Assembly (NCBI RefSeq): GCF_001458335.1
Contig: NZ_CYTO01000009.1
Span: forward strand, 28,155 to 92,154
Source of the DNA: Cognatishimia activa
Lineage (GTDB): Bacteria; Pseudomonadota; Alphaproteobacteria; Rhodobacterales; Rhodobacteraceae
DNA: 64,000 nt
Direction of reading: 5' to 3'
In this document: positions 11,515 to 15,726 of the stretch, piece by piece
Layout of the letters: each line of letters opens with the position of its first letter
How positions within the stretch are numbered: the first letter of the stretch is position 1
Notes under the pieces: model-generated
The model's database searches: none
What the model saw: only the letters and a program-made list of their open reading frames with translations
What the model was told of the DNA's origin: nothing
Translations under genes and position numbers: made by a program

Positions 11515-11979
11515 ATGACACCCAAAGATCCCTTTCGTCCTCTGGACGATGACGCCCGCGCCATGATCGCAGAGCTGATGACATCGAGCCACGCGGCCCT
11601 TGCGGTGACCCGAGAGGACGGCACGCCTTCCGTGACCCGCATAAGCTTAGCCGCGGATAAGGACAGCGCTCCTGTCACTTTAATCTCTGATTTATCTTTA
11701 CATACAAAAGCTTTACGCAACGCGCCCGCCTGTGCGCTCTTGATCGGAGAACCGGGTGAAAAGGGCGATCCGCTGACCCATCCACGGCTGACCTTGCATT
11801 GTAAGGCGGCGTTTGTGGAGCAGGGGAGTGCGGCGCATGTTGCTTTGCGTGCGCATTACCTTGCGCAACGGCCCAAGGCGAAGCTCTATGTGGATTTCGC
11901 CGATTTCCACTTTGTGCGGTTTGAGGTGGTGGATGGCTTGCTGAATGCAGGGTTCGGCAAAGCCTATAAAATACCGTAG
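11515..11979 (+). CDS. Pyridoxamine 5'-phosphate oxidase-like (HugZ family) protein
   Basis: A 154 aa split-barrel protein of the PNPOx-like superfamily, close to HugZ-type haem-utilisation proteins (N-terminal RAMIAELMTSSHAALAV ... GTPSVTRISL ... LISDLSLHTKAL). These bind flavin or haem; whether this one degrades haem is not clear because the usual C-terminal haem-ligating extension of HugZ is absent (HugZ is about 250 aa). Its stop codon TAG is part of a GTAG sequence that looks like the head of a degenerate REP (see repeat 11976-12047). Confidence 0.8.
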   Translation: MTPKDPFRPLDDDARAMIAELMTSSHAALAVTREDGTPSVTRISLAADKDSAPVTLISDLSLHTKALRNAPACALLIGEPGEKGDPLTHPRLTLHCKAAFVEQGSAAHVALRAHYLAQRPKAKLYVDFADFHFVRFEVVDGLLNAGFGKAYKIP

Positions 11980-12047
11980 GGCAGGTGCTGCTCTGCGGGA
12001 TTGCTCGGCAGCCATCTGGGAAGGGTGAATGTGCAAACCCGCCCTAC
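11976..12047. repeat. Degenerate REP pair
   Basis: GTAGGGC at 11976 and CCCGCCCTAC near 12037-12046 face each other, like the outer ends of the intact REP pairs further right, but the internal stems are decayed. The left GTAG contains the stop codon of the HugZ-like gene. Confidence 0.4.
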
Positions 12048-12066
12048 GGTGTCTTTGAAAAGCGTC

Positions 12067-12391: not shown

Positions 12392-12413
12392 GTAGGCCGG
12401 GCTTCAGCCCGGC
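12392..12413 (+). repeat. REP element, class 1
   Basis: GTAG head followed by stem GCCGGGCT/AGCCCGGC with a TC loop. GTAG is the 5' tetranucleotide known to be recognised by RAYT transposases. It lies 43 bp upstream of the RAYT gene, in the same orientation. Confidence 0.85.
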
Positions 12414-12455
12414 ACCCGCAACATTTCATTAACCAAACCGCGGTCATCTTGGCGC

Positions 12456-12977
12456 ATGTCCAACTACATCCGCCCCAAAATCCCCGGTGCGACAGTGTTC
12501 TGCACTGTCGTCTTGGCGCAGCGGGGATCGACGCTGTTAGTGGACCACATTGATATGCTGCGAGAGGCGGTGAAGGAGACACGCGACCAACGCCAATTTC
12601 AAATCGATGCATGGGTGGTCTTGCCGGACCACATGCATTTCGTTTGGACATTGCCGGAAGGGGATTGCGATTTGGGCGTGCGGGTTGGAGCGATGAAAGC
12701 GCGGTTTACAATGAAGCTCCGTAGGGCGGGCTTCAGCCCGCCAGCGACGTTGCCCGTCGTTCGAAACGGCAGATATGCCGGGCTGAAGCCCGGCCTACGC
12801 AAGACGAAACGAGAAAGCGCCCTCTGGCAACGCCGGTTTTGGGACCACCACATCCGCAATGACGCCGAATACCGCGCATATGTGCAGTATTGTCATATCA
12901 ATCCGGTGAAACATGGGTTTGTGGAGCGCCCCGAAGATTGGCCATATTCCACGGTGCATTTGGAAAAAGAAATGTAG
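12456..12977 (+). CDS. REP-associated tyrosine transposase (RAYT, IS200/IS605-like)
   Basis: A 173 aa single-domain HUH-type nuclease. The metal-binding motif is in 'LPDHMHFVWTLPEGD' near residue 50, and the C-terminal half has 'WQRRFWDHHIRNDAEY' and 'YVQYCHINPVKHGFV', with the catalytic Tyr probably in the latter. RAYTs bind and cut REP hairpins with a GTAG head. Two REPs in opposite orientation (12721-12798) lie in frame inside this gene and are translated as AGFSPP ... AGLKPG between two conserved blocks, replacing a variable loop. The stop codon TAG is the GTAG head of the next REP. Frame and motifs are intact, so activity is possible. Confidence 0.92.
   Translation: MSNYIRPKIPGATVFCTVVLAQRGSTLLVDHIDMLREAVKETRDQRQFQIDAWVVLPDHMHFVWTLPEGDCDLGVRVGAMKARFTMKLRRAGFSPPATLPVVRNGRYAGLKPGLRKTKRESALWQRRFWDHHIRNDAEYRAYVQYCHINPVKHGFVERPEDWPYSTVHLEKEM
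12721..12798. repeat. Inverted REP pair inside the RAYT coding sequence
   Basis: First REP 12721-12742: GTAG head and stem GGCGGGCT/AGCCCGCC. Second REP 12777-12798: stem GCCGGGCT/AGCCCGGC then CTAC, so reversed. They face each other with 34 bp between. The whole pair is read through in frame by the transposase. Confidence 0.9.
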
Positions 12978-13043
12978 GCCGGGCTTCAGCCCGGCAATGA
13001 TTGGTCAGATGTCGTGTCAATGCCGGGCTGAAGCCCGGCCTAC
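12974..13043. repeat. Inverted REP pair (class 1) after the RAYT gene
   Basis: REP 12974-12995 in forward and 13022-13043 in reverse orientation, both with the GCCGGGCT/AGCCCGGC stem. The TAG of the left GTAG head is the transposase stop codon. Confidence 0.9.
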
Positions 13044-13056
13044 GGTCGTTTGTTGC

Positions 13057-13128
13057 GTAGGGTGGGGTTTTACCCCACCGTTGCGAGAGGTTTGCGGCCG
13101 AGGATGGTGGGTTGGAAACCCACCCTAC
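13057..13128. repeat. Inverted REP pair (class 2)
   Basis: REP 13057-13079 forward (GTAG head, stem GGTGGGGT/ACCCCACC) and 13106-13128 reverse (GGTGGGTT/AACCCACC, then CTAC). The right one ends 5 bp from the stop codon of the DUF4145 gene. Confidence 0.88.
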
Positions 13129-13133
13129 GGGTT

Positions 13134-13877
13134 TTAAGCGTCAGCATGCCCTTGTTTTTTGTCTGCATCCTTTTGTTCCGCGATCTGCATGACTTTTGCA
13201 AATCGCATTTTGCGCTTTTCGCGAGCGACATACCATTCATCAAAGAGCGTTTCGATAATTTCGATAAGTGCTTGGGCTTCATGCGGGTCTACATCAACAA
13301 TAACGTTGATGTCTTTCTCCATGTGAGCTCCAATATTACCAATTTTTCTTAGTGCGTCGATTGCATCGATACTATCTTCAGTAACGCCTTTGGGAATGGT
13401 TCCTTGTTCAGTCCGCGATCTGAGCTCGTCAATTTCTTTGTACAGCGTGCCTTTGGTGATTCCGCAAAAGTCCCGGATCATTCCTTGAAGGCATCGGCGA
13501 GCTAACGTTGCAGACGCTTTAGGGCTTAGGTCCCGGATTTTACATGCCTCGCTGTAGTCCTCAACTAGCGCTCGTGGGATGTAATCGGGCTGAGGTTTTG
13601 CTTGGCTCTCCGGCAAAAGGCAAAATGACTTAAGAGTTTTTGGGTTTTGGGGAAGGTAGCATCTATAATTGCTTGCGCTATAGGCCGCTTCAATCAATTC
13701 TACGGTTAGTGTTGGCTTCTTGCATTCCGGGTTAGCGCAAGTGATTGCTGATCCCTTCAGACCGATAAATCCCCGATCAGTTTCAGTTACATCAAAGGCA
13801 AAACTATTCGAAGAAAAATTGCTGCCGTTTACAATTTGTGCATGGTTGCAATATCGGCAAATCCAGTTGTGTGCCAT
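13134..13877 (-). CDS. DUF4145 domain protein with N-terminal zinc ribbon
   Basis: A 247 aa protein. The N-terminal 60 residues have CRYC and CANPEC pairs, a likely zinc ribbon. The C-terminal half is a DUF4145 domain (YSEACKIRDLSPKASATLARRCLQGMI ... DALRKIGNIGAHMEKD ... ALIEIIETLFDEWYV). DUF4145 is related to HEPN-fold proteins and is often found beside restriction or abortive-infection genes, but its activity here is unknown. ATG at 13877 has GGGAG 5 nt upstream and is preferred over the ATG four codons earlier. The base composition is lower in GC than neighbours and the gene sits among REPs, which suggests acquisition. Confidence 0.8.
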   Translation of the reverse strand: MAHNWICRYCNHAQIVNGSNFSSNSFAFDVTETDRGFIGLKGSAITCANPECKKPTLTVELIEAAYSASNYRCYLPQNPKTLKSFCLLPESQAKPQPDYIPRALVEDYSEACKIRDLSPKASATLARRCLQGMIRDFCGITKGTLYKEIDELRSRTEQGTIPKGVTEDSIDAIDALRKIGNIGAHMEKDINVIVDVDPHEAQALIEIIETLFDEWYVAREKRKMRFAKVMQIAEQKDADKKQGHADA

Positions 13878-13892
13878 TGAAACTCCCATTTT

Positions 13893-14070: not shown

Positions 14071-15726
14071 TTACCGGGTGAATTTCTTGTGCTTGAGACG
14101 TTTTGGTTCAAGCGCATCCGCCCCAAGCCTACGCTTCTTATCTTCTTCGTAGTCCTCAAAATTGCCCTCAAACCATTCCACATGCGCCTCGCCTTCAAAG
14201 GCCAGAATATGCGTGCAGATCCGGTCGAGGAAGAAACGGTCGTGGGAGATCACAACCGCGCAGCCCGCGAAATCGACCAGCGCGTCTTCCAAGGCGCGCA
14301 GGGTTTCCACGTCCAAGTCGTTGGTCGGCTCATCCAGCAGCAGTACGTTGCCGCCTTCTTTGAGCAGACGCGCCATGTGTACGCGGTTGCGCTCACCACC
14401 GGACAGCAGGTTCAGCGGTTTTTGCTGGTCGCCGCCTTTGAAGTTGAAGCTTGAACAGTACGCACGCGAGTTGACCTGCGCGTCGCCCAATTCGATGATC
14501 TCCGCCCCGCCGGAAATTGCTTCCCAGACGGTTTCTTTGTCGTTCAGATCATCGCGGCTCTGGTCGACATAGGACAGTTTCACCGTGTCGCCATAGGTGA
14601 CAGAGCCGCCATCGGGCTGTTCCTGACCGGTCAGCATCTTAAAGAGCGTGGATTTACCGGCGCCGTTGGGGCCGATCACGCCGACAATGCCGCCCGGGGG
14701 CAGAGAGAACTCCAGCCCTTCGATCAGTTGCTTGTCGCCAAAGTGTTTGGACAGGCCTTCGACCTCGATCACCTTTGAACCCAGACGCGGTCCATTCGGG
14801 ATAACGATCTGGGCGCGGCCGACCTTTTCGCGTTCGGACTGAGACGCCATCTCGTTATAGGCCGCAATACGCGCTTTGGATTTCGCCTGACGGGCCTTTT
14901 GACCCTGACGCATCCATTCGAGTTCGCGTTCCAGCGTTTTCTGCTTGGATTTGTCTTCGCGGGCTTCCTGCTCCAGACGTTTCGCCTTTTGCTCCAGCCA
15001 GCTGGAGTAGTTGCCTTCGTAAGGAATGCCGCGGCCACGGTCGAGTTCCAGAATCCAGCCGGTGATATCGTCAAGGAAATAGCGGTCGTGGGTCACACAG
15101 AGGATGGTGCCCTTATAATCGATCAGGTGCTGTTGCAGCCAAGCGATGGTTTCCGCGTCCAGGTGGTTGGTGGGTTCGTCCAAGAGCAGCATGTCTGGCG
15201 CTTCCAGCAGCAGCTTGCAGAGCGCCACGCGGCGCAGCTCACCACCGGAGAGATCAGCGATTTTCGCGTCATCTGGTGGGCAGCGCAGGGCTTCCATAGA
15301 GACATCCACCTGACTGTCCAAATCCCAAAGGTTCTGGGCGTCAATGTCGTCTTGCAGCTTGGCCATCTCCTCGGCAGTTTCGTCCGAGTAGTTCATCGCC
15401 AGCTCATTGTAGCGATCCAGAATGGCCTTTTTCTCGGCCACGCCCAGCATGACGTTTTCCCGCACGGTCAGGGTTTCATCGAGCTTTGGCTCCTGCGGCA
15501 GGTAGCCGACTTTCGCGCCTTCTGCAGACCAAGCCTCGCCGGTGAAATCCTTGTCCAATCCGGCCATGATTTTCATCAGCGTGGATTTACCCGCGCCGTT
15601 GACACCAACGACACCGATTTTCACGCCGGGCAGGAAGGAGAGGTGGATATTCTCAAAACATTTCTTGCCGCCGGGGTAGGTCTTGGAGACCCCCTGCATG
15701 TGATAGACGTACTGATAAGCTGCCAT
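14071..15726 (-). CDS. ettA: Energy-dependent translational throttle protein EttA (ABC-F ATPase)
   Basis: A 551 aa soluble ABC-F protein that binds the ribosomal E site and gates the step into elongation according to ATP/ADP ratio. Two nucleotide-binding domains are present: Walker [10 protein letters not shown] near residue 41 and GPNGAGKST near 355; signatures [12 protein letters not shown] and [12 protein letters not shown]; Walker [14 protein letters not shown] and [13 protein letters not shown]. Between them lie the arm and the charged linker ([21 protein letters not shown]). The end '[25 protein letters not shown]' is the normal EttA tail. An inverted repeat ATTCACCC/GGGTGAAT straddles the stop codon. 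Likely a housekeeping gene inside the accessory stretch. Confidence 0.97.

Follow-up and report, generated by a model that had tools for sequence, protein, structure and literature searches.

Can an enzyme use its own target sequence as a part of itself? This question is raised by a gene for a REP-associated tyrosine transposase (RAYT) in a window of 64,000 nucleotides (nt) from Cognatishimia activa, which is the whole stretch of DNA that was analyzed. The original prediction placed two facing, in-frame REPs at 12721-12798 inside this gene, and both direct reading and a repeat search confirmed them. The feature also lies within the wider range of 12392-13128 that was given for it, but position 12392 is the start of a flanking REP and the gene itself starts at 12456.

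The RAYT gene and its internal REP pair

The RAYT gene (12456-12977, plus strand, start codon at 12456) is intact and encodes 173 amino acids. Its product matches the profile NF047646 with 165.6 bits (6.4e-49; curated cut-off 80) and Pfam Y1_Tnp with 22.2 bits, slightly below the cut-off of 23. The sole solved structure matched by the sequence at E<=0.001 is that of E. coli TnpA-REP (PDB 4er8; 2e-36). H59 and H61 of the HxH metal motif are invariant among 90 aligned sequences and Y145 is nearly so; counted along the 4er8 alignment, Y145 pairs with residue 115 of the E. coli protein, Y115, which we take to be the catalytic tyrosine. The dN/dS of the RAYT core is about 0.09-0.21 in six pairs, in which dS is near saturation. 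For example, codons 1-86 give a dN of 0.10 and a dS of 1.09 against the gene of Cognatishimia maritima (L004), and the comparison with the congener L083 gives 0.21 and 1.24. The core is under purifying selection. The transposase had been described as complete in appearance, and the profile score, the invariant HxH motif and the substitution ratios all agree with that description.

REP classes are our own and were defined by first bases: A, GTAG[GA]NCGGG; B, GTAGGGTGGGNTT; D, GTAGGGTGGGCA; E, GTAGGATGGG; and C, which comprises C1 (other GTAGGGTGGG) and C2 (GTAGG[GA]TG[CT]G or GTAGGGCGCG). Both internal REPs belong to class A. The first is on the plus strand (12721-12742, GTAGGGCGGGCTTCAGCCCGCC) and is translated within R-A-G-F-S-P-P. 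It is followed by a spacer (12743-12776, plus strand) that codes for ATLPVVRNGRY and is similar in 15 relatives. The second REP is on the minus strand (12777-12798, GTAGGCCGGGCTTCAGCCCGGC on that strand), and its plus strand is read within AGLKPGLR. The two facing REPs form a REPIN of 78 nt, a multiple of three, and encode most of residues 87-122; the open reading frame (ORF) 12456-12977 stays open across them and reads RAGFSPP...YAGLKPGLR. In the repeat search they appear as a 24-nt inverted repeat, 92% complementary, with arms 32 nt apart. Folding of 12715-12804 gave z-scores of -7.2 as DNA and -6.5 as RNA, each against 200 dinucleotide shuffles.

In a HMMER alignment with 4er8, residues 1-86 pair with 1-86 and residues 123-169 with 93-139, and residues 87-122 are without counterpart. 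The insert stands where the E. coli protein has just six residues (between 86 and 93), between helix alpha3 and strand beta4, a position consistent with a loop. According to the accessible portion of PMC8266576, K82 of the E. coli enzyme is on the DNA-binding helix alpha3 and touches the bulge of the REP, and residues that contact GTAG, including Q95, D100 and R104, are near beta1 and beta4. In the alignment, the insert thus sits between the regions matching the REP-reading helix and the GTAG-reading strand. By analogy with the E. coli, Stenotrophomonas and Marinomonas enzymes described in the same portion of that paper, class A REPs are probably the substrate of the window RAYT.

Flanking REPs with the same GTAG head and stem had also been predicted, and class A copies do surround the gene in inverted orientation. 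They are located at 12392-12413 (plus strand, from the repeat search), at 12974-12995 (plus strand), where the GTAG supplies the TAG stop codon of the RAYT (12975-12977), and at 13022-13043 (minus strand), the last being a direct repeat of the internal minus-strand REP. Internal and flanking copies alike have the GTAG head, palindromic stem, short loop and inverted pairing that characterize REPs and REPINs. The use of the TAG of a flanking GTAG head as stop codon was seen in 70 of the 138 RAYTs measured in the survey below. A second pair, of class B, lies at 13057-13128 (13057-13079, plus; 13106-13128, minus; GTAGGGTGGG..CCCACC). On the other side, a REP-like inverted repeat (11968-12055; arms 11968-11986 and 12037-12055, 84% complementary) is located just 3' of the ORF 11515-11979.

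An ABC-F-type ATPase gene (14071-15726, minus strand; named by eye from the sequence) marks the syntenic site of this RAYT in relatives. In the window the two genes are separated by a 251-aa ORF of no assigned function (13134-13889, minus strand), for which tblastn at 1e-6 over the loci collected matched only the window's own copy. Only 72 nt lie between RAYT and ABC-F in the congener L083.

In the 3.36-Mb genome of the window, the class A pattern has 20 copies, 5 of them in or beside the RAYT gene, against 0 for a reversed-pattern control, which marks it as a repeat family rather than a palindrome that arose by chance. A further 33 class A or B copies were found at 20 loci. Some of these are contained in 15 ORFs of at least 100 aa, none of which has a Pfam match, suggesting that the ORFs are not real genes. 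Judged by Pfam matches of the containing ORFs, the RAYT gene is the sole recognized REP host gene in this genome. A second RAYT (L076 / L188; contig C10, 16243-16692, minus strand) adjoins class C2 REPs and has no internal REP, and two RAYT-REP systems of different class therefore coexist in this organism.

Internal REPs in related RAYTs

Relatives were collected from 74 contig loci and 394 genomes of the same family, at least 129 of which have a match; 100 further regions were taken from the matches listed, without those scoring under about 84 bits and without some partial matches. After rows with identical first 100 residues were merged, 197 RAYT rows were left. Of these, 152 were taken as Rhodobacteraceae and near kin, and the insert site was measurable between two anchors in 138 of them and not in 14; some of the 138 are metagenome-assembled genomes labelled just Alphaproteobacteria or Pseudomonadota. 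The 45 rows of other taxa include the Rhodobacterales records L032, L046, L049, L052 and L055, none of which has a REP at the site.

An intact GTAG hairpin occupies the insert site in 61 of the 138 RAYTs (class A 33, B 20, D 5, E 3). Nine others have a long insert without an intact hairpin, several of which look like decayed REPs by eye. The remaining 68 have a plain linker of 19-24 residues (21-22 in 65 of them), and most of the linker-only genes with typed flanks bear REP classes other than that of the window. The original prediction was open to one objection, that homologues without REPs might have the same residues at this place; these 68 lack the residues and have the linker instead. The insert is therefore no ancestral peptide with a mere resemblance to a REP. 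Internal REPs are a recurrent feature of many RAYTs in this bacterial family, beyond the single case first noted.

The site is also specific. Elsewhere in the 138 genes, hairpins of the REP classes were confined to the tail or the vicinity of the stop codon, from residue 153 on; a hairpin at residue 56 of L202 fits no REP class. The 45 rows of other taxa had no hairpin in the gene body and one in the tail (L047). At the insert site the reading frame is near-uniform, with 36 of 38 plus-strand and 49 of 56 minus-strand REPs in the same frame. In L103, L106, L113 and L180 the internal REPs stand in reverse order (-/+), REPs of classes D and E occur singly at other offsets, and in L082, L096, L107 and L108 a decayed REP copy is kept in an open frame. 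The partial RAYTs L229, L230, L232 and L233, from draft genomes, were considered as possible truncations at REPs; their loci are cut short at these points, which were taken for contig ends.

Agreement with flanking and genomic REPs

Flanking REPs were classed within 150 nt of the gene, which leaves 15 of the 61 genes with an internal REP with no typed flank. In the other 46, the internal class is a flanking class in 42 (four of these have flanks of more than one class). Where the flanks of such a gene include class A, B, D or E, the agreement is 42 of 42; the four exceptions (L001, L078, L098, L101) have class A inside and class C flanks only. Presence of the insert follows the flanks as well. 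Among 39 RAYTs flanked by class A or B, 35 have an internal REP, 3 a long insert and 1 neither, and the corresponding numbers for 45 class C-flanked RAYTs are 4, 1 and 40 (Fisher p about 1e-14, a value not to be taken literally for related rows). RAYTs flanked by class D or E are divided into 7, 1 and 7, and 6 of the 10 with class E flanks are without insert.

The agreement extends to the sequence of the stem. Over 49 loci, with flanks of at most 700 nt on the upstream and 900 nt on the downstream side, the stem identity between internal REPs and their own flanks was 0.934, against 0.751 +/- 0.017 (maximum 0.817) in 1000 permutations. In 20 of the 49 loci an internal REP had an exact copy among the flanking REPs; permutation gave a mean of 3.1 and a maximum of 10. 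The flank-permutation set and the anchor-measured set each count 61 genes with an internal REP, with L004, L092 and L151 only in the former and L085, L111 and L160 only in the latter. As a control for relatedness, the flanks of each gene were compared with its own internal REP and with that of the nearest relative; the own internal REP was nearer in 24 cases, 20 were ties and 2 were the reverse (sign test, by hand, on 24 versus 2: about 1e-5).

Genomic copies were counted with one pattern per class in 57 genomes and 12 named ones, including those at the RAYT, which form the majority in certain genomes (G385 is an example). Where the RAYT has class A inside, the genome has more A than B copies in 25 of 26 cases (exception G065); where it has class B inside, B outnumbers A in 14 of 14. 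The named genomes agree in 8 of 9 (exception L013; L004, with a truncated gene, is counted). Overall, the internal class is the commoner of A and B in 47 of 49 genomes. This number leaves out G108, where both REP classes occur and each has a RAYT; G074, G077 and L007, with zero of both; the duplicates L003 and L014; G110 and G114; and genomes in which the internal REP is of class D or E or is absent. The window genome is nearly balanced, with 20 class A and 19 class B copies. Going beyond the original prediction, these data show that the internal REPs belong to the class of the flanks and of the genome.

The agreement in class between gene, flanks and genome could also arise in the opposite direction, if the RAYT gene were the source from whose palindrome the genomic REP families arose and were exported. 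We regard this as very improbable, since the 40 of 45 C-flanked RAYTs without an internal copy show that REPs need no internal source. 

Some genomes have many REPs but no RAYT with the insert: G018 has 173 class A/B-like REPs and the only RAYT found in it has a plain linker, and G005, G053, G003, G104 and G316 have 10 to 59 such REPs each with no RAYT found.

Conservation at the DNA level

The leucine codon in the minus-strand REP motif, which was defined on the protein alone, is CTA in 51 of 54 matches; these come from related genes and are not independent events. The three others are decayed REPs (L096, L132) and a chance match (L191). Over the 138 genes, CTA accounts for 31 of 1370 leucine codons outside the insert. 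Stem pairs 2, 3 and 7 vary among the 37 distinct internal REPs, with changes on both sides; pair 2, for instance, is GC in 24, CG in 6, TA in 4 and AT in 3. In the 32 genes with two intact internal REPs, the two copies agree at pair 3 in 32, at pair 2 in 28 and at pair 7 in 28, while the permuted maxima for pairs 3, 2 and 7 are 24, 24 and 22 (permuted mean for pair 7, 13.2). The whole REP is identical between both copies in 17 of the 32. Both internal loops are TTCA in the window and TTTA in Cognatishimia maritima (L004); counting its two internal REPs, the L004 genome has TTTA in 7 of 18 class A copies, and the window genome has it in 1 of 20. The DNA of the internal REPs is preserved, and not the peptide alone.

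The motifs x-G-F-x-P and G-x-[KN]-P-x-L-R are found repeatedly in classes A and B, as would be expected of an old protein feature that was selected as a peptide and is merely REP-like. This explanation is hardly credible in view of the linker-only homologues, the variation of the stems as base pairs and the nearly constant CTA codon. That codon, in contrast, fits a role in cis for which the internal REPIN may be kept, either as a hairpin in the gene or mRNA that the RAYT would bind to limit its own synthesis, or as a built-in substrate that would tie the enzyme to its REP class. The strong fold and the contrast between A/B-flanked and C-flanked RAYTs would agree with such a role, but class C RAYTs manage without the insert and decayed copies persist in open frames in L082, L096, L107 and L108. 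On sequence evidence, we consider a cis role unlikely. Control by a small RNA or the 5' UTR, as in ISPpu9, was also considered, and nothing in the window bears on it.

Shared locus and tree

At least 45 of the measured RAYTs are convergent to the same ABC-F gene by tblastn, and with the short flanks more are possible. Of these, 29 have an internal REP (A 15, B 11, E 3), 7 a long insert and 9 neither. The window RAYT (class A) and that of its congener L083 (class B) are a supported sister pair (100/94), and their genomes contain 20 A and 19 B copies versus 3 A and 14 B. Other supported pairs of unlike class are L007 (A) with L118 (B), at 97/93, and L008 (A) with L013 (B), at 100/99. The core tree is poorly resolved, with 134 columns and 62 of 133 inner branches open, and gains and class switches are therefore not countable. 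The idea that the insert arose once and was never lost or switched was nevertheless rejected: on this tree 'none' requires 22 changes and class A requires 24, and the starred branches force 8 and 9 of these.

In Cognatishimia maritima (L004:3001-3430) the RAYT ends directly after the internal minus-strand REP, and a class B pair follows that resembles 13057-13128 of the window. In this one case, the loss of the catalytic half would be the outcome expected of direct-repeat recombination between the internal and the downstream flanking minus-strand REP.

Origin of the internal REPs

We think it rather probable that the internal pair is a REPIN that has long been present in the gene, in a loop that permits it, and that the resident REP population has overwritten it in concerted evolution, with some separate entries. 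In this view, a REPIN would long ago have been inserted in frame into a RAYT of the Rhodobacteraceae, at a loop that tolerated it. The internal REPs may then have acted as members of the REP population of the genome. When the resident class shifted, the internal copies would have been overwritten through REP-to-REP conversion or strand exchange promoted by the RAYT, while the gene, under purifying selection, remained open. More than one entry into the loop is probable. The overwriting presumably proceeds by conversion and not by new insertions; either the RAYT itself or host recombination may carry it out; and the inserted peptide is likely a harmless loop.

Evidence on this point comes from the spacer. 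A similar spacer, mostly PVVxSGRYAG, is common to 16 genes, of which 11 have CTTCAG-type and 5 GTTCAC-type stems; the similarity spans about ten residues, with no statistic attached, and the group was found with a loose expression written post hoc. Both cores agree in type in 13 of the 16, L091 and L107 have one intact core, and L093 has unlike stems. Repeated independent insertion, in which the loop is the only non-lethal landing place for a REPIN and landings are frequent in REP-dense surroundings, would give the class match and the single site without further assumption. The reversed pairs of L103, L106, L113 and L180 and the single D and E REPs at other offsets point in the same direction, and several separate entries are likely on their account. 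It does not readily give one spacer in 16 genes despite two stem types, or the near-uniform frame; we judge independent insertion as the general explanation rather unlikely, and overwriting in place is favored over it by these same two observations. Against overwriting stand the flanks of L001, L078, L098 and L101, the majority exceptions G065 and L013, the unlike stems of L093, the single intact cores of L091 and L107, the REP-rich genomes without an insert-bearing RAYT listed above, and the class E-flanked RAYTs without insert.

If overwriting took place, it may have had a consequence for the enzyme. The loop is directly behind the REP-reading helix, so that each overwriting would alter the substrate and the adjacent peptide together, with the class shifting in both. 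The accessible portion of PMC8266576 suggests that the stems of group 3 REPs might be bound by helix alpha3 and the region that follows it. It is conceivable, but quite improbable, that the internal REP DNA encodes part of the REP-reading surface of the enzyme, whose own target would then contain some of its specificity.

Comparison with known systems

The following comparisons refer to the accessible portions of the papers cited. The window RAYT resembles REPtrons (PMC2817692, PMC8266576) in its HUH tyrosine transposase, the inverted GTAG REP pairs beside the gene and the pairing of RAYT with REP class, and differs from them in the additional, translated REP pair inside its coding sequence. 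Like the REPINs of PMC3116915, the internal pair consists of two inverted REPs with a spacer, present in many copies per genome; unlike them, one copy is intragenic and in frame in the RAYT gene, at a place that can be aligned across many species. In-frame palindromic repeats translated in otherwise known proteins have been described for intragenic GTAG/CGTC REPs and Rickettsia palindromic elements (PMC3733652). Many of these intragenic REPs are in DNA repair genes, and recB of two Xanthomonas species contains different REPs at about the same site (PMC3733652). The hosts named in the accessible text of that paper are uvrA, recB, dnaE2 and others; it names no RAYT host, describes no tracking of the genomic class and places the REPs of RAYT genes beside the gene or across its ends. 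A literature search of partial coverage, with few subscription papers, found no paper that names a RAYT gene with an internal REP.

Over long times, intergenic REPs are difficult to align, but the internal pair is alignable, with the frame and the spacer as markers. Dozens of species with different REP classes at one fixed spot allow the spread of repeats to be watched, and the internal REPIN makes overwriting and fresh insertion testable against each other. A further REP form was observed in the genome of L010 (G403), in which the REP overlaps its own reverse complement and gives a full palindrome of 27 nt in many copies (for example C3:47047-47073). The L142 RAYT gene contains the same full-palindrome form.
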